Shown here piece after piece: positions 507 to 48,594 of a DNA stretch of 64,000 nucleotides. The notes under the pieces were generated by a model, which was not told the origin of the DNA, made no database searches, and worked only from the letters and a program-made list of their open reading frames with translations. The DNA is from Aestuariivirga litoralis (GTDB taxonomy: Bacteria > Pseudomonadota > Alphaproteobacteria > Rhizobiales > Aestuariivirgaceae), in assembly GCF_015714715.1 (NCBI RefSeq), contig NZ_WAHS01000002.1, forward strand, positions 682,001-746,000. The letters are read 5' to 3'. The stretch's first letter is position 1. Each line of letters opens with the position of its first letter. A program made the translations under genes and the position numbers.

Positions 507-814
507 GGAATGAAAAAAGCATGTTTGCTGGAACAAGCCAAGCGGGATGGAATATTCATTCCACAGTCGGTTAACCCCGATTGGAATTGACATTGCACTG
601 CAACATGCCTATGTGACCGCTATCGCTGCCGGCCCAAACGACGACGTGAGGAGCTTTTTAGCTACCAGTCAGGCCAGGCGCCCATGAAGAACTCGATAAG
701 TTCATGGGCCAGTAAGAGCGCCCCAACTTTCCTTTCACGTGGGATCGTCAACTTCGCCTGTTCAGGAACAGCGGCGGAGCCAAATCCCTTATGTTCCGTT
801 TGAAAGGGTCCTCT
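507..814. other. Divergent intergenic region with leader hairpin
   Basis: No gene was found between the RpiR regulator and the DEAD-box helicase. The region must hold both divergent promoters, but no clean -35/-10 pair is obvious. Its clearest structure is a hairpin with 9-nt arms at 680-688 (GCCCATGAA) and 701-709 (TTCATGGGC) and a 12-nt loop. It lies about 105 nt upstream of the helicase start, so it could sit in the helicase mRNA leader. A smaller CTGTTC/GAACAG inverted repeat follows near 758-771. Confidence 0.5.
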
Positions 815-2842
815 GTGACTCAATTTACCGACCTTGGCCTTTCCCAGAAGCTGCTCGATGCGCTCAACCAGGAAGGCTACACCACCCCAACCCCCATCCA
901 GGCAAAATCCATTCCTTCATTGCTTGAAGGCCGCGATTTGCTGGGCATCGCCCAGACCGGCACCGGCAAGACCGCTGCTTTCGCGCTGCCGATCCTCGAG
1001 CGCCTGTCGCGCCATGAAGACCGTGTGGCCCGCGGCACCTGCCGCGTGCTCATTCTGTCGCCAACCCGTGAGCTTGCCGCCCAAATCGGCGAAAGCTTCA
1101 AGACCTATGGCAAATACATGAAGTCGTCGCGCGCTGTCGTTTTCGGCGGGACGTCGATCGGCAAGCAGGTTGAAATGTGCCGCAACGGTGTGGACATTCT
1201 CGTTGCCACCCCCGGCCGCCTCGTCGACCTGATCGAGCGCCGCGCCATTTCGCTCGGCAAGGTTGAAATCCTGGTTCTCGACGAAGTGGACCAGATGCTG
1301 GACCTCGGCTTCATCCACGCCATCCGCAAGATCACCGCTTTGATACCGAAGACCCGTCAGAACCTGTTCTTCTCGGCCACCATGCCGAAGGAAATCGCTG
1401 GCCTGGCTTCTGGCCTGCTGAACAATCCAGTGCGCGTTGAAATCGCCCCCGTGGCGACCACCGCTGAGCGTGTGAACCAGTCCGTGATCCATGTCGATCA
1501 GCCCGGCAAGATGGCCGTGTTGAACGACCTGCTGAAGGACAACAACATGACGCGCACCTTGGTGTTCACCCGCACCAAGCATGGCGCCGACAAGGTTGTG
1601 CGTGGTCTGGCTCAAGCCAACTACACCGCCGCCGCCATTCACGGCAACAAGAGCCAGCCCAACCGCGAAAAGGCGCTGGCAGGCTTCAAGAGCGGCAAGA
1701 TCCTCGTCCTCGTGGCGACGGACATTGCCGCCCGTGGCATCGACGTCGATGGCGTGTCGCACGTCATCAATTTCGATCTGCCGCATGTGCCGGAATCCTA
1801 CGTGCATCGCATCGGCCGCACCGCCCGTGCAGGCGCTGAAGGCCAAGCCATCGCTTTGTGCGCCGGTGATGAACGTTCATTGCTGCGCGACATTGAGCGC
1901 ACCATCCGCATGTCGATCCCGGTGACCACCCATCCGCTCGGCAAGCAGGAAGTGCCGCAGGGCCGCGAGACCAGCACGCGCCCCAATGGCCGTGCCATGG
2001 CACCAAAGGCCGGCGCGCGTGAACCCCGCAATATGGGGGACCGCCCGGCCCGCGAGAAATCCAACGGCGGCAGAGCCCACCGTGGCCAACCCGGCTTTGC
2101 CGTGAAGCCGAATGCCGGACGCGCCGCACCGGGTGACCGTATGGACGCACCGGTTCAGGCCCACGCCGAAACGGCAGCGCCTGCACGCCACGTTCACGAC
2201 GAAAAGATCGCCACTGCCAACAAGCGCACCGATTGGACGCCGATGCAGGGCGAACCCACCGTGATGTATCAGAAGCCCAAGGCCAAGGAGCACGTTTCAA
2301 ACGAACGCCCGCACCAGCCCTGGTTCAACAAGCGTTCGGAAAACGGTGCCAACCGTGGCGGCAAGACCCGCGACCGCAGCTTCGGTGACAAGCCGCGTGG
2401 CCCCCGCACCGAAGGCGGTGAAAGGCGCGCTCATGGCACTGAAAAGCCATGGAGCAACCAAGGCGGCGAATTTGCTGGTGACCGTGCACGCGATGAGCGT
2501 AAGGCTGGTGACAAGCCGCGTGGCAATTTTGGTGACAAGCCCCGTGGCAATTTCGCTGGTGACAAGCCGCGCGGCAATTTTGGCGACAAACCCCGTGGCG
2601 ACCGTAATTTCAGCGACAAGCCCCGCGGTGAGCGCAGCTTAGGCGACAAGCCGCGCGGAAACTTTGGCGACAAACCGAGAGATGCCGGCGCAGGTGATCG
2701 CCCGCGCGGCAATTTCGGTGACAAGCCCCGTGGCAATTTCGCCGGCGGCAAGCCGCGCAGCGGTTCCGGTGGCGGCAAGCCCGGCGGTTTCGGCCGCCCC
2801 TCAGGCGGCAGCTTCAAGCGCCCGAACCGCGCTGAAGGCTAA
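815..2842 (+). CDS. DEAD-box ATP-dependent RNA helicase with GDKPRGNF-repeat tail
   Basis: ATP-dependent RNA helicase of the RhlE/DeaD type, acting in ribosome assembly, RNA decay or cold adaptation. The core has the Q motif, Walker A AQTGTGKT, PTRELA, TPGR, SAT, ATDIAARGID and HRIGRTARAG. Motif II reads DEVD (residues 156-159 from the GTG) instead of DEAD. The helicase core ends near residue 370. The rest is a basic, disordered tail, and its last ~140 residues are many degenerate copies of GDKPRGNF, likely an RNA-binding arginine/glycine tail. I prefer the GTG at 815 because the protein then begins VTQFTDLGLS, where family members normally start, and an AAAGGG lies 5-6 nt upstream. An in-frame ATG at 791 is the alternative. 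The gene is followed by a strong terminator. Confidence 0.93.
   Translation: MTQFTDLGLSQKLLDALNQEGYTTPTPIQAKSIPSLLEGRDLLGIAQTGTGKTAAFALPILERLSRHEDRVARGTCRVLILSPTRELAAQIGESFKTYGKYMKSSRAVVFGGTSIGKQVEMCRNGVDILVATPGRLVDLIERRAISLGKVEILVLDEVDQMLDLGFIHAIRKITALIPKTRQNLFFSATMPKEIAGLASGLLNNPVRVEIAPVATTAERVNQSVIHVDQPGKMAVLNDLLKDNNMTRTLVFTRTKHGADKVVRGLAQANYTAAAIHGNKSQPNREKALAGFKSGKILVLVATDIAARGIDVDGVSHVINFDLPHVPESYVHRIGRTARAGAEGQAIALCAGDERSLLRDIERTIRMSIPVTTHPLGKQEVPQGRETSTRPNGRAMAPKAGAREPRNMGDRPAREKSNGGRAHRGQPGFAVKPNAGRAAPGDRMDAPVQAHAETAAPARHVHDEKIATANKRTDWTPMQGEPTVMYQKPKAKEHVSNERPHQPWFNKRSENGANRGGKTRDRSFGDKPRGPRTEGGERRAHGTEKPWSNQGGEFAGDRARDERKAGDKPRGNFGDKPRGNFAGDKPRGNFGDKPRGDRNFSDKPRGERSLGDKPRGNFGDKPRDAGAGDRPRGNFGDKPRGNFAGGKPRSGSGGGKPGGFGRPSGGSFKRPNRAEG
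2390..2790 (+). repeat. Degenerate in-frame tandem repeat coding GDKPRGNF
   Basis: About 15 degenerate copies of a roughly 24-27 nt unit encode G-D-K-P-R-G-N-F and variants such as AGDKPRGNF and SDKPRGERS inside the helicase tail. Copies share long stretches of identical DNA, so unit number probably varies by slippage between strains. Confidence 0.85.
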
Positions 2843-2891: not shown

Positions 2892-2913
2892 GTGCCCAAG
2901 CTACCACCCCATT

Positions 2914-2943
2914 CCGTCACCCCTGCGAAGGCAGGGGCCCAGC
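2914..2943 (+). repeat. Palindromic repeat copy A (CGTCACCCCTGCGAAGGC type)
   Basis: A 30-nt unit beginning CCGTCACCCCTGCG and ending in CCCAGC. Its core is a 7-bp hairpin, CCCCTGC / GCAGGGG, with a GAAG loop. It is oriented toward the GIY-YIG gene, whose start codon is 37 nt further on. Its inverted partner is copy B at the other end of that gene. Related copies occur at 48455-48483 and 48511-48540. The sequence resembles the widespread intergenic CGTCATTCCCGCG...GGAATCCAG class of alphaproteobacterial palindromes. Confidence 0.85.
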
Positions 2944-2980
2944 TTCTTGACAACCTACGAAGCCACTTTAGCTTCCCTGC

Positions 2981-3349
2981 ATGTCCGAAGAAAAGCAGCC
3001 CGCTGTTTACATCACAGCCAATCGTTATCGCGGCACCATCTATATCGGGGTGACGAGTGCGCTGTGGAACCGCATCTCAGAGCACAAGAATAGTGCCTTT
3101 GACGGCTTCACGGCAGAACATAACGTGCATCATCTCGTCTGGTACGAGCACCATCACATGATGGAAGATGCCATCCGCCGCGAGAAACAACTCAAGAAAT
3201 GGAAACGTGATTGGAAAATCCGGATCATTGAGGAGATGAACCCGGAATGGCACGACTTGCACGAAAAGATCGATCCCATCGGCACACTTGTTGCGCTCAA
3301 AGCTGGGCCCCTGCCTTCGCAGGGGGTGACGGTTCTTGGGGAAAGTTAG
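2981..3349 (+). CDS. Small GIY-YIG family nuclease
   Basis: A stand-alone 122-residue GIY-YIG endonuclease of the YhbQ/UPF0213 type. The N-terminal motif appears as AVYITANRYRG then TIYIGVTS, with the catalytic arginine in LWNRISEHK. The conserved RREKQLKKWKRDWKI carries the glutamate that binds metal, and IIEEMNPEWHDL closes the domain at about residue 92. The last ~20 residues (AGPLPSQGVTVL and on) are encoded by palindromic repeat B, so the native C-terminus is lost in repeat sequence. The gene sits between a terminator and a convergent gene, with inverted repeat copies on both sides. Cellular function of such small members is not established; single-strand or branched DNA cleavage is plausible. 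Confidence 0.9.
   Translation: MSEEKQPAVYITANRYRGTIYIGVTSALWNRISEHKNSAFDGFTAEHNVHHLVWYEHHHMMEDAIRREKQLKKWKRDWKIRIIEEMNPEWHDLHEKIDPIGTLVALKAGPLPSQGVTVLGES
3302..3332 (-). repeat. Palindromic repeat copy B, inverted relative to copy A
   Basis: On the minus strand this 31-nt unit matches copy A except for one extra C (CCGTCACCCCCTGCG). It overlaps the last codons of the GIY-YIG gene and ends 17 nt before its stop. Together A and B form terminal inverted repeats around a 358-nt interior holding the gene. Confidence 0.85.
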
Positions 3350-3353
3350 GTGA

Positions 3354-4568
3354 TCACAAACACCGCACCAGATCAGCCCAGAGATCTTCGCCATCCTCAA
3401 TGCCAACCGACAGCCGAAACACGCCATCGCCTGCCAGCGCGCGGTAACGCGCCGCCGCCTCCGGGCCATGCCGGAAGGTTGATTTCTCGATGTCATCCGT
3501 GCCGATCCAACAGATCAGGCTGCGGTGATGACCGAGCGAGACGGCATAGTGCGTGATCTCCAGCGTATCAATCATACGCTGCGCGATGGCAGGGCCCGCT
3601 TCATGCGTCTGGAACGTCATCATGCCGGAAAAATTCTTCATCTGTCGCTTGGCCAGGTCGTGTTGTGGATGCGATGGCAGACCCGGATACAGTACATTCT
3701 TCACCGCCGGATGCGCTTCCAGTTTTTGCGCCAAAAAGAGCGCAGCCTTCTCATGCGCCGCCATGCGCAAGGGCAGCGTGGCCGCACCGCGCAAAATCAG
3801 CCAGGCATTGAACGGCGACATGATGCCGCCGAAATGCACCATGGCTTCGAGATTGAGCGCCGCCATGTCAGCCTTGCGGCCGATCACGCAGCCACCCATC
3901 GCATCGCCATGCCCGCCGATATATTTGGTCAGCGAATGCATCACGAAATCCGCGCCGAGTTCCAAAGGCCGCGTGGCCAGCGGCGTGCAATAGGTCGAAT
4001 CCACCACCACATCGCGCACGCCCTTGGCACGAGCCAGCGCCGACAGTGCCGCAATGTCACTGAGCATCATCGATGGATTGGAGGGTGACTCGATCCACAG
4101 CATCCGCGTATTGGGCCGGATCGCAGCGGTCACGGCTTCCACATCGGAAGTATCAACGTAAGAGGCTTCAATGCCAAAGCGCGGCAGCGTATCGCGCGCC
4201 AATTCGGCAATGCCCACATAATTGCTTTCCGGCATCAACAGATGATCGCCCGCCGAAAGCCGCCCGCAAATCAGCGCATGGCCGGCACCCACGCCGGACG
4301 CAAAACACAGCGCCGTCTCGCCGCCTTCTAGCGCCGCTACTTTCTCTTCCAGCTGCCGCACTGTAGGGCTGCCCACGCGCGCATAGACAAAGCCTTCAGT
4401 GCTTTCATCCTGATCGCGCGCCGAAAAACCCGTGAGCTTCTCCGGCGCGAAAGTGGCTGACATGACCAGATTGGGCGATGACGCGCGAGTAACAGGATCA
4501 ACAAATTCGCCCGCATGTACGGCTGTGGTGGCAAAGCTCAGCGGCCCCAAAGTGTTCTTCTTGGTCAT
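3354..4568 (-). CDS. Cys/Met metabolism PLP-dependent enzyme (cystathionine gamma-synthase/lyase family)
   Basis: A 404-residue fold-type I PLP enzyme. The PLP lysine is in HSLTKYIGGHGDAMGG, the cofactor aspartate in VVDSTYCTPL, and FASGVGAG binds the phosphate. YARVGSPTVRQLEEKVAALEG is the typical N-terminal segment, quoted here as YARVGSPTVRQLEEK. The family includes cystathionine gamma-synthase, cystathionine gamma-lyase, methionine gamma-lyase and O-acylhomoserine sulfhydrylases, and sequence motifs alone do not settle which. It therefore handles transsulfuration or methionine breakdown. It lies downstream of the atp operon but behind that operon's terminator, so it has its own promoter. 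It converges on the GIY-YIG gene with a 4-nt gap. Confidence 0.88.
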   Translation of the reverse strand: MTKKNTLGPLSFATTAVHAGEFVDPVTRASSPNLVMSATFAPEKLTGFSARDQDESTEGFVYARVGSPTVRQLEEKVAALEGGETALCFASGVGAGHALICGRLSAGDHLLMPESNYVGIAELARDTLPRFGIEASYVDTSDVEAVTAAIRPNTRMLWIESPSNPSMMLSDIAALSALARAKGVRDVVVDSTYCTPLATRPLELGADFVMHSLTKYIGGHGDAMGGCVIGRKADMAALNLEAMVHFGGIMSPFNAWLILRGAATLPLRMAAHEKAALFLAQKLEAHPAVKNVLYPGLPSHPQHDLAKRQMKNFSGMMTFQTHEAGPAIAQRMIDTLEITHYAVSLGHHRSLICWIGTDDIEKSTFRHGPEAAARYRALAGDGVFRLSVGIEDGEDLWADLVRCL

Positions 4569-4601
4569 GTCTCACTCCCTGCCCGCCAGCTTGCGATGGC
4601 A

Positions 4602-4633
4602 CAAAACAAAAAACCAGCCTTGTGGAGCTGGTT
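4602..4633 (-). terminator. Terminator of the atpHAGDC operon
   Basis: On the minus strand AACCAGC, an 8-nt loop and GCTGGTT are followed by TTTTTTGTTTT. It lies 26 nt beyond the atpC stop and before the PLP enzyme start. Confidence 0.85.
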
Positions 4634-4658
4634 CTTCAGGATCAAATTGTATGGCTTG

Positions 4659-5048
4659 TTACAGAACGCTCTGCAGCGCCTTCAGGTGATCGAGATTTTC
4701 CTGGGCCACGCGCTTGGCTTCGGCTTCGGTGGCATCGGCGACGTCTTCCTCGGCGTCCTTGATCTGCTTGGCCAAGGCGGCAGCATCAAGTTCTGCTGTC
4801 GGAATGGCGCGTTCGGCCAGCACCGTGAGGCCCTGCGGGTTCACTTCGGCAAAACCGCCACGCACGAAAATACGCTGCGAACCAGAAGCTGCCGTCACCG
4901 TCACCACGCCGGGGCGCAATGACGTGAGCAGCGGCGCATGTTGCGGCAGGATGGTCATTTCACCTTCCGTGCCGGGCAGCTGCACGCTGTCCACGTCGCC
5001 CGAGAAGAGCAACTTGGCCGGTGAAACGAGTTCGAAGTGAAGCGCCAT
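4659..5048 (-). CDS. atpC: F1 ATP synthase subunit epsilon
   Basis: A 129-residue epsilon subunit, part of the rotating central stalk of the F1Fo ATP synthase, which couples rotation and can inhibit ATP hydrolysis. The N-terminal beta-sandwich is seen in FELVSPAKLLFSGDVDSVQLPG then EGEMTILPQHAPLLTSLRPG (each shown in part). The C-terminal helical hairpin is short and alanine-rich. It is the last gene of atpHAGDC, 15 nt after atpD and just before the terminator. Confidence 0.95.
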   Translation of the reverse strand: MALHFELVSPAKLLFSGDVDSVQLPGTEGEMTILPQHAPLLTSLRPGVVTVTAASGSQRIFVRGGFAEVNPQGLTVLAERAIPTAELDAAALAKQIKDAEEDVADATEAEAKRVAQENLDHLKALQSVL

Positions 5049-5063
5049 CGTTCTGTCTTTCGC

Positions 5064-7435
<2,372 letters not shown>

Positions 7436-14415: not shown

Positions 14416-14434
14416 CCTCCCCCAATGGGGGAGG
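14416..14434. repeat. Intergenic palindrome CCTCCCCC-AAT-GGGGGAGG
   Basis: An 8-bp GC-only stem with a 3-nt loop in the 115-nt phaA-phaB gap. There is no T-run, so it is not a classical terminator. It resembles short C/G-rich palindromes scattered in alphaproteobacterial intergenic DNA. It could modulate the relative expression of phaA and phaB or stabilise the upstream mRNA end. Confidence 0.6.
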
Positions 14435-47416: not shown

Positions 47417-47679
47417 ATCTCTTTCTTGTTCGCCCTTCTCCCCTCGAGGGGAGAAGGTGCCAAAGGGCGGATGAGGGGACGGCCCTCGTCAGCCTTTCAA
47501 GCGTGCCAAAGACCCAAACGAAAAAACACCCGGGAACGAAACTCGTTGCCGGATGGAGCCCTTTCATCTCCCGCAAAGGCTCAAGGCCCGCATGTATGAA
47601 ACAGCATCAGATCGTTCAAGCGTCTGACAGAATGTGGCTGCGCATAGGGGAAAAGGGGCGGGGAGTCAAATTTGCTCGC
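47417..47679. other. Intergenic region between ffh and the broken gene
   Basis: It contains the palindromic repeat above and about 200 nt to its right in which I see no supported gene. A 60-codon plus-strand frame at 47503-47685 has no ribosome site or recognisable protein. Confidence 0.5.
47431..47469. repeat. Palindromic intergenic repeat in the ffh leader
   Basis: A perfect 24-nt palindrome at 47434-47457 (CCTTCTCCCCTC followed by its complement). It is embedded in wider arms CGCCCTT (47431-47437) and AAGGGCG (47463-47469), and GATGAGGGGACGG follows. It resembles the CTCCCC...GGGGAG plus GGGCGGATGAGGGG repeats common in Rhizobiales. It lies 18 nt upstream of the ffh start codon on the ffh transcript side. 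Confidence 0.8.
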
Positions 47680-48454: not shown

Positions 48455-48483
48455 CCGTCACCCCTGCGAAGGCAGGGTCCAGC
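48455..48483 (+). repeat. Palindromic repeat copy C
   Basis: A 29-nt unit, CCGTCACCCCTGCG...GGGTCCAGC, nearly identical to copy A at 2914. It lies 52 nt upstream of the broken gene's start and faces copy D. Confidence 0.85.
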
Positions 48484-48510
48484 TTTGGCGAACGAGCCAG
48501 TGACTCCGAA

Positions 48511-48540
48511 GCTGGATTCCCGCCTTCGCGGGAATGACGG
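48511..48540 (-). repeat. Palindromic repeat copy D, inverted partner of C
   Basis: On the minus strand it reads CCGTCATTCCCGCG...GGAATCCAGC, with an 8-bp internal stem ATTCCCGC / GCGGGAAT. C and D are separated by 27 nt and form an 86-nt inverted doublet (48455-48540), like REPIN-type elements. Confidence 0.85.
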
Positions 48541-48594
48541 GTAGTGACGTCGGTAACTATACCACGTCCAGCCCGCCCCAAATGATCACCGCCA

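Follow-up and report, generated by a model that had tools for sequence, protein, structure and literature searches.

The stretch of DNA analysed here (the window, 64,000 nucleotides, equal to C2:682001-746000 of the 3.33-Mb genome G000) contains, between a DEAD-box RNA helicase gene and a cystathionine gamma/beta-lyase-type gene, a short reading frame for a GIY-YIG nuclease (P0001) that is bracketed by two inverted palindromes, copy A and copy B, and elsewhere a head-to-head pair of such palindromes that holds no gene (Table 1). Near-identical inverted palindromes around a GIY-YIG gene had been described by an earlier, sequence-only reading of this DNA, and this description holds, copies A and B differing by one extra C and both being predicted to fold. 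The core of copy A is CGTCACCCCTGCGAAGGCAGGGGCCCAG (2915-2942, plus strand), and that of copy B (3302-3331, minus strand) is the same sequence inverted with the additional C. Both present the CGTC tag and the CCCAG tail and, when folded as DNA, give hairpins with a 7-bp stem and a 4-nt loop, the fold energies of -8.9 kcal/mol (copy A) and -8.5 kcal/mol (copy B) being equalled in 2 of 200 and 4 of 200 shuffles, respectively. At the first stem position an A faces a C, leaving 7 bp paired; the full stem is seen in other units of the same genome, for example CGTCATTCCCGCGAAGGCGGGAAT.

Table 1 Features of the palindrome-nuclease unit, the gene-less doublet and the neighbouring genes (positions are those of the window)
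Feature	Position	Strand	Basis or remark
Copy A, CGTC-tagged REP hairpin with CAGCTT tail	2914-2945	+	Left end of unit
GIY-YIG single-domain nuclease ORF, P0001, 122 aa	2981-3349	+	PF01541
Copy B, inverted REP hairpin with one extra C	3299-3332	-	Right end of unit
Entire palindrome-nuclease unit, 420 bp	2913-3332	.	L003 versus L103 homology; empty in G008
Head-to-head REP doublet lacking a gene, heterodimer, 87 bp	48455-48541	.	Sequence match and fold
Left neighbour, DEAD-box RNA helicase gene	791-2842	+	Named by eye from sequence
Right neighbour, cystathionine gamma/beta-lyase-type gene	3354-4568	-	Named by eye

P0001 contains a single Pfam domain, PF01541 (49.5 bits, cut-off 22.6), and residues Y10, Y21, R31, H35, E68 and N87, whose catalytic role we assume from I-TevI, are invariant across the three GIY-YIG copies of its own genome. 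The sequence-only reading had the repeats enclosing only this gene: one gene does lie between them, but its frame crosses copy B and stops past it, at 3349, so that copy B and the sequence beyond it supply the codons for approximately 16 residues. No family in NCBIfam was found for P0001 or P0003, no match to P0001 among phage records, and in Rfam only two matches below the gathering score (E 0.13 and 0.19), both to the left of the unit. An AlphaFold2 model of P0001 based on a 9-row alignment had a mean pLDDT of 41.8 and was set aside, and the only solved chains at E of 0.01 or below were the UPF0213 GIY-YIG chains PDB 1zg2 (1.3e-5) and 1ywl (0.0039), a weak similarity which is taken to indicate a different subfamily. 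Strict CGTC hairpins number two in the window, compared with a mean of 0.62 and a maximum of 3 in 60 approximate dinucleotide shuffles; this count alone is not striking, and the evidence for an arrangement beyond chance is that of the whole genome and its relatives.

Allowing up to three mismatches, the 28-mer of copy A occurs eight times in the 3.33-Mb genome and not once when read backwards, while a looser REP pattern retrieves 22 units versus none backwards. Eighteen of these 22 units form nine head-to-head pairs which measure 81-88 bp across. The gene-less inverted doublet at 48.5 kb had been read as the same unit as that around the gene, which applies to one of its arms, this being the copy A unit one base shorter and with one substitution, but not to the other, CGTCATTCCCGCGAAGGCGGGAATCCAG, which has a different stem; the fold obtained for the doublet as a whole is a single long hairpin (-31.4 kcal/mol, z -7.3). 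Most of the doublets read have in common a tail GCTT/AAGC, often CAGCTT/AAGCTG, and end as the unit does (CGTC...CAGCTT). The relation suggested earlier between a gene-less and a gene-bearing form is supported: as doublets and unit have the same ends, the GIY-YIG gene is located where a doublet has its short spacer. Three GIY-YIG genes of one clade are present in this genome, namely that of the window (L003), L001, which is bracketed by an inverted CGTC pair with another stem, and L002, whose bracketing palindrome is a variant form built on the core GGGCTYGACCC.

Loci for comparison were obtained by a PF01541 search of 61 relatives (among the matches listed) and by reading 80 further stretches; of the matches listed, those with short frames were read together with some longer ones, while matches of UvrC length and a few others, such as G051:C18, G026:C42 and G011:C29, were left out. 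After removal of duplicates (L008 and L014-L020) and of L005, which lay outside the question, 113 loci were retained among the matches listed, two of which (L021 and L022) come from outside the 61 relatives. All were re-classed by a profile grown from the three own-genome copies, and 84 were assigned to the clade and 29 placed outside it at a cut-off of E<1e-30, which was set after the flanks had been seen and falls in a gap from 1.6e-33 to 1.5e-29.

The enrichment of repeats at this type of GIY-YIG gene that had been put forward as a check is found: a strict CGTC hairpin lies within 350 bp of 60 of the 84 clade loci as opposed to 1 of the 29 other GIY-YIG loci (among the matches listed), with hairpins on both sides in 49 clade loci, 42 of which have them as a pair of plus orientation upstream and minus orientation downstream. 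The 350-bp flanks of the 84 clade loci hold 158 hairpins in 58.8 kb, compared with 17 in 410 kb of distal sequence. With 300-bp flanks the strict CGTC density is 31.4 per 10 kb near versus 0.48 distal for 77 clade loci; this density test used 77 of 84 clade, 27 of 29 other GIY-YIG and 43 of 50 DUF559 loci, the rest having less than 300 bp of flank. Among the 24 clade members that have no strict CGTC hairpin nearby, some (L002, L059) use variant palindromes and others show none by these tests. The strict detector misses long-loop forms; under a relaxed detector 61 rather than 56 of the 77 relatives were positive, but distal hits also rose, from 19 to 111. In a motif-free test, from which 1 of 84, 1 of 29 and 5 of 30 loci were left out, 245 shifted windows served as the background, and the inverted repeat between the flanks scored higher than their 99th percentile in 64 of 83 clade loci; the control was not clean, 30 of 195 mismatched locus pairs also exceeding the threshold, which we attribute to palindrome families that loci have in common.

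A phylum-wide set unused for discovery was also searched: 102 of its 199 genomes gave a match, 17 of the best 29 loci read were strict-positive, and several of the 12 strict-negative ones contain long-loop CGTC palindromes as judged by eye. A plasmid collection (33 records matched) yielded a strict hairpin within 400 bp in 12 of 17 named loci read, three of these 12 being one Sphingobium locus in three strains. Related contigs in named genomes belonged to Hyphomicrobiales or Alphaproteobacteria MAGs in eight of nine cases and to Brevundimonas in one. Bracketing by CGTC repeats of all short GIY-YIG genes was also considered and rejected on the single positive locus outside the clade, and the impression from stop counts that many copies are broken was discounted because many alignments may extend past the natural stop.

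Palindromes and proteins vary together. Across the 42 loci with plus-upstream and minus-downstream hairpins, the distance between the upstream and downstream palindromes is 0.065 within a locus, as against 0.33 between loci and 0.328 when the loci compared belong to one genome (26 such comparisons, in none of which the hairpins are identical). Over these 42 loci the distances between proteins correlate with those between palindromes (Mantel r 0.65, 0 of 2000 permutations), and r is still 0.62 over 831 pairs after removal of syntenic or more than 75%-identical pairs; the permutation removes shared ancestry only in part, while the within-genome comparison controls for the host. From position and covariation together, a pairing of each enzyme with a putative target in its own flanking palindromes is strongly supported.

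The limits of the unit were assessed from copies in unrelated places. The window copy (L003) and L103 of genome G020 have 420 bp in common, corresponding to window positions 2913-3332 and extending from palindrome edge to palindrome edge, with nine further bases (to window position 3341) under looser scoring. Similarly, four loci in three genomes (L044, L059, L060 and L065, two of them in G005) encode proteins 88-92% identical and have homology over 374-385 bp, which in the four aligned pairings starts at or just before TCTCTCCATGG, the outer end of the left palindrome, and stops no more than a few bases from CCATGGAGAG, which forms the outer end of the right one; a translated search detected no common flank in five of the six pairings, L044 and L060 having the downstream flank in common. 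A wider boundary test was applied to 42 pairs selected for their lack of common flanks (L021 excluded), so that an alignment end near the gene is partly given by construction, which does not apply to an end at the palindrome edges. Strict palindromes are known on both sides for 20 of these pairs, and the homology ends within 10 bp of the edge on the left in eight, on the right in seven and on both sides in two, the alignment in the remaining pairs mostly ending between gene and palindrome. The composite unit of the sequence-only reading is supported by the L103 block and by these four loci, but few of the wider pairs end at both edges. Among the 566 cross-genome clade pairs of 60% identity or more, common flanks were found by translated search in at least 26, a lower bound because flanks missing at contig ends are undetectable.

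Sites both with and without the unit exist, as had been sought in close strains, although the comparisons are between species rather than strains. For the window locus, 22 lyase loci of other genomes were read (21 genomes besides G000), and the helicase gene adjoins only in G008, in which the lyase is 79% identical; here the site is empty, the helicase and lyase stop codons being 55 bp apart and the intervening sequence containing neither a CGTC palindrome nor a GIY-YIG gene. Azospirillum lipoferum 4B has a doublet-gene-doublet arrangement between sufB and sufC, a site at which A. ramasamyi, A. oryzae and strain B510 (approximately 96% identical in the aligned pieces) carry neither gene nor doublets. 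At the fnrL site of Sphingobium the unit is present in seven records (four of the seven aligned), one of which, strain TYG73, has a frameshifted copy. The gene-less fnrL sites of TYG64 (L185) and TYG74 (L184) hold one symmetric palindrome with a CGTC tag at both ends, which in TYG64 equals the product expected if the filled form underwent a deletion between its two ACCCCGGG runs and in TYG74 does so with substitutions; this palindrome could be a deletion scar or a possible target. Strains TYG65 and TYG72 have no CGTC palindrome at this site.

A further site, next to a gene named soxG by eye, is matched in 34 of 37 genus genomes, and 30 loci were read, some of which are cut by contig ends. Empty, doublet-only and gene-bearing states all occur there within one genus: G011, G018 and G031 contain gene and palindromes, G001 an oppositely oriented copy from a different lineage, G006 a 51%-identical gene lacking strict hairpins, and G020 and G035 the doublet only (one arm being degenerate), while 21 of the 30 loci have neither gene nor strict hairpin, including G029, whose neighbour is approximately 30 bp away. 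Gene-less sites thus present a putative target in some cases (the palindrome in TYG64 and TYG74, the doublet in G020) and none in G008, G029 and A. ramasamyi, so that insertion is not always into an existing CGTC palindrome; no target duplication was seen by eye. Taken together, boundaries and empty or filled sites support the view that gene and palindromes are present or absent as a block.

Counts per genome point in the same direction. The 23 of 37 genus genomes with a CGTC-flanked clade gene have a median of 42 REPs, compared with 6 in the other 14 (Mann-Whitney p 1.8e-4), and the Spearman coefficient of gene and REP counts over the 37 genomes is 0.51. Between 0 and 6 clade genes were found per genome, the tallies counting only clade genes read, and three genomes have neither a clade gene nor a REP of the pattern used, a pattern with one loop type that makes the REP counts too low for other forms. 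Exceptions are G008 and G017, with 49 and 24 REPs, respectively, and no gene, and G036, with four genes and seven REPs.

At the suf site of Sphingomonas parapaucimobilis, a DUF559 gene lies between inverted copies of another palindrome, a locus that led to a wider test of DUF559. DUF559/Vsr resembles EDxHD enzymes. A pyrimidine-armed palindrome (class D, e.g. CCCTCTCCC...GGGAGAGGG) occurs within 300 bp of 33 of 43 DUF559 loci, in 21 of them on both sides. Its density at these loci is 58.9 near versus 0.45 distal per 10 kb, and at the clade GIY-YIG loci 0.43 near versus 1.01 distal; as the detector counts symmetric hairpins on both strands, these class D densities need to be halved and the inverted-pair counts are void. 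CGTC hairpins at the DUF559 loci amount to 1.2 near versus 0.7 distal per 10 kb. Phylum-wide (75 of 199 genomes with a match), the best 30 DUF559 loci read have a class D palindrome within 300 bp in 30 of 30 cases, 14 on both sides, with a density of 76 near versus 3.5 distal (both-strand counts), and a CGTC hairpin in 1 of 30. Covariation with the protein is likewise seen for the class D palindromes of DUF559 (r 0.50 over 23 loci, 0 of 2000), and for the copies L208/L228 and L211/L224 the homology ends at the palindromes, other copies having long common flanks. A third palindrome, class E (CYTCAYSCTGAGG), is near 8 of 27 other GIY-YIG loci, on both sides in six (13.0 versus 0.21 per 10 kb). 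The loci of the motif-free test served to define classes D and E, and the set on which both were counted overlaps them, only D having also been tried on other loci. In the resulting 3 x 3 comparison the palindrome association is nuclease-specific, and DUF559 (Vsr-like), an unrelated nuclease family, evidently pairs with a palindrome other than the CGTC one; a literature search for DUF559 together with palindromes retrieved no paper.

Several observations accompany this comparison. Two class D palindromes are located in the window itself (14416-14434 and 47435-47456), and G000 has DUF559 genes at C2:186417, C1:1499752 and C1:1547456 (L224-L226), each with class D-like flanking palindromes. A second GIY-YIG group (L069, L088, L100, L120, L121 and others) has a CCTCATCCTGAGG-like palindrome, conserved synteny being apparent for its members L120, L121 and L122.

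Among known systems, P0001 appears most to resemble Ssn, the Neisseria single-strand nuclease. The sequence-only reading knew of no system of this type; a pairing of a GIY-YIG enzyme with a repeat does have a precedent in Ssn, a GIY-YIG nuclease that reportedly cuts single-stranded DNA at a Neisseria repeat, in work attributed to Chenal et al. in Nat Commun in 2025 that is said to concern cutting and transformation and that probably pairs homologues with nearby repeats already. The Neisseria gonorrhoeae homologue of P0001, which we take to be Ssn, is 52.9% identical over 85% of the query (E 2e-17) and sits among 16 strict CGTC hairpins (dRS3-like repeats) in 4.3 kb. Like Ssn, P0001 consists of a single GIY-YIG domain with the presumed catalytic positions intact; whereas the Ssn work reportedly concerns cutting and transformation, the present material has gene and palindromes present or absent as a block and comes mainly from Alphaproteobacteria.

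The palindromes belong with the CGTC REPs (Di Nocera et al. 2013, PMC3733652), which occur in several phyla and have a CGTC tag, a stem of 8 or 9 bp that is almost always A-T complementary in its first two positions, a 4-5 nt loop and a short unpaired tail fitting CCA, are mostly head-to-head dimers and apparently have no dedicated transposase. The window units likewise have the CGTC tag, a 4-nt loop, a CCA-like tail and head-to-head dimers, and differ from the repeats as described there by being paired with a nuclease clade. The arrangement of a gene between inverted palindromes, along with gene-less doublets with the same ends, is that of REP/REPIN elements and their RAYT (TnpA-REP), but the enclosed gene matches PF01541 only and not a Y1/HUH transposase, and the palindrome tag is CGTC rather than GTAG. 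GIY-YIG and EDxHD are listed among six homing endonuclease families (PMC6083498); as in homing endonucleases, a small free-standing nuclease is proposed to spread at its cognate site using no transposase, but a self-splicing host element is absent and what the enzyme presumably recognises is a hairpin occurring in many copies.

Our preferred reading, to which we give modestly better than even chances, is that nuclease and palindromes form an Ssn-type selfish unit with homing-like spread. The single-domain GIY-YIG nuclease would recognise and cut the hairpin of its own CGTC palindrome in single-stranded DNA, a state that would arise in replication gaps, uptake or transfer, the two flanking palindromes serving it as cognate targets and at the same time forming the unit's ends. 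Following the cut, host repair would copy the unit, or the palindrome doublet alone, into the new place via palindrome homology or strand capture, giving a homing-like, transposase-free spread of which the gene-less doublets would be the non-autonomous form. The cutting of single-stranded hairpins by P0001 is suggested by analogy with Ssn, and we infer nuclease cutting as the cause of spread as well as the repair step. GIY-YIG enzymes cut DNA by hydrolysis without rejoining the ends, and the homing-like route would fit a hydrolytic nuclease better than transposition does, although no junction displays it and some empty sites are target-free.

A host-serving nuclease, which cuts genomic palindromes and modulates DNA uptake or single-strand turnover while the palindromes are kept for regulation or targeting, is an unlikely but serious alternative: Ssn is reported to act in Neisseria transformation, CGTC hairpins surround the gonococcal homologue (53%), and covariation is expected of any enzyme-site pair. 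Against it speak the patchy presence of clade genes within one genus (0 to 6 per genome), which looks like that of a mobile passenger, their mostly non-syntenic positions (26 of 566 pairs with common flanks, a lower bound), the bounding of the closest copies at the palindrome edges and the frameshifted copy in Sphingobium TYG73. The 81-88 bp head-to-head doublets resemble REPINs, and mobilisation of CGTC REPs by other transposases is suggested in PMC3733652; on this reading single-stranded hairpins would be moved by a Y1/HUH transposase acting in trans with the GIY-YIG gene as partner or passenger. We regard such REPIN-like transposition as improbable, for it leaves the sequence-matched palindromes of one nuclease clade unexplained, and the RAYT and IS200 genes of CGTC-repeat species are reported to lack flanking CGTC units (PMC3733652).

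Palindromes acting as terminators or mRNA stabilisers around many small genes, with the bracket as a by-product, would agree with REPs being mostly downstream of coding regions (PMC3733652) and with copy B being at the frame end; the nuclease-specific association in the 3 x 3 comparison, with CGTC hairpins near a single one of 29 other GIY-YIG loci, largely refutes this explanation already and makes it very improbable. Extending the favoured reading of a selfish unit, a general bacterial class may be envisaged in which Ssn-type GIY-YIG, the second GIY-YIG group and Vsr-like DUF559 nucleases would each have captured their own palindrome family, carried at both ends and spread by hairpin cutting and host repair; this proposal is more tentative, its chances falling just short of even. 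The origin of CGTC REPs becomes testable through a sequence-matched nuclease inside block-like copies, and the DUF559 result suggests one principle behind several repeat families. If true, the general class would explain the origin of REP-like families that have no RAYT and would amount to intron-free homing and to transposition that needs no transposase. As natural pairs whose covariation is visible, these nucleases and palindromes also offer ready material from which to learn how such enzymes read hairpins.

Three individual loci deserve mention. L176, on the Planktothrix plasmid NZ_LR882964.1, has a clade-type GIY-YIG gene with an MmeI-type restriction gene on one side and drmA, a DISARM gene, on the other, and no strict CGTC hairpin near it. 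L049 (G029:C78) has a 491-residue stop-free frame over a clade GIY-YIG domain with flanking CGTC hairpins, which may be a fusion or a chance frame. On the Photobacterium plasmid pGJ3-1 (L179), seven consecutive CGTC/TGTC hairpin pairs follow the GIY-YIG gene at positions 2962-5130.
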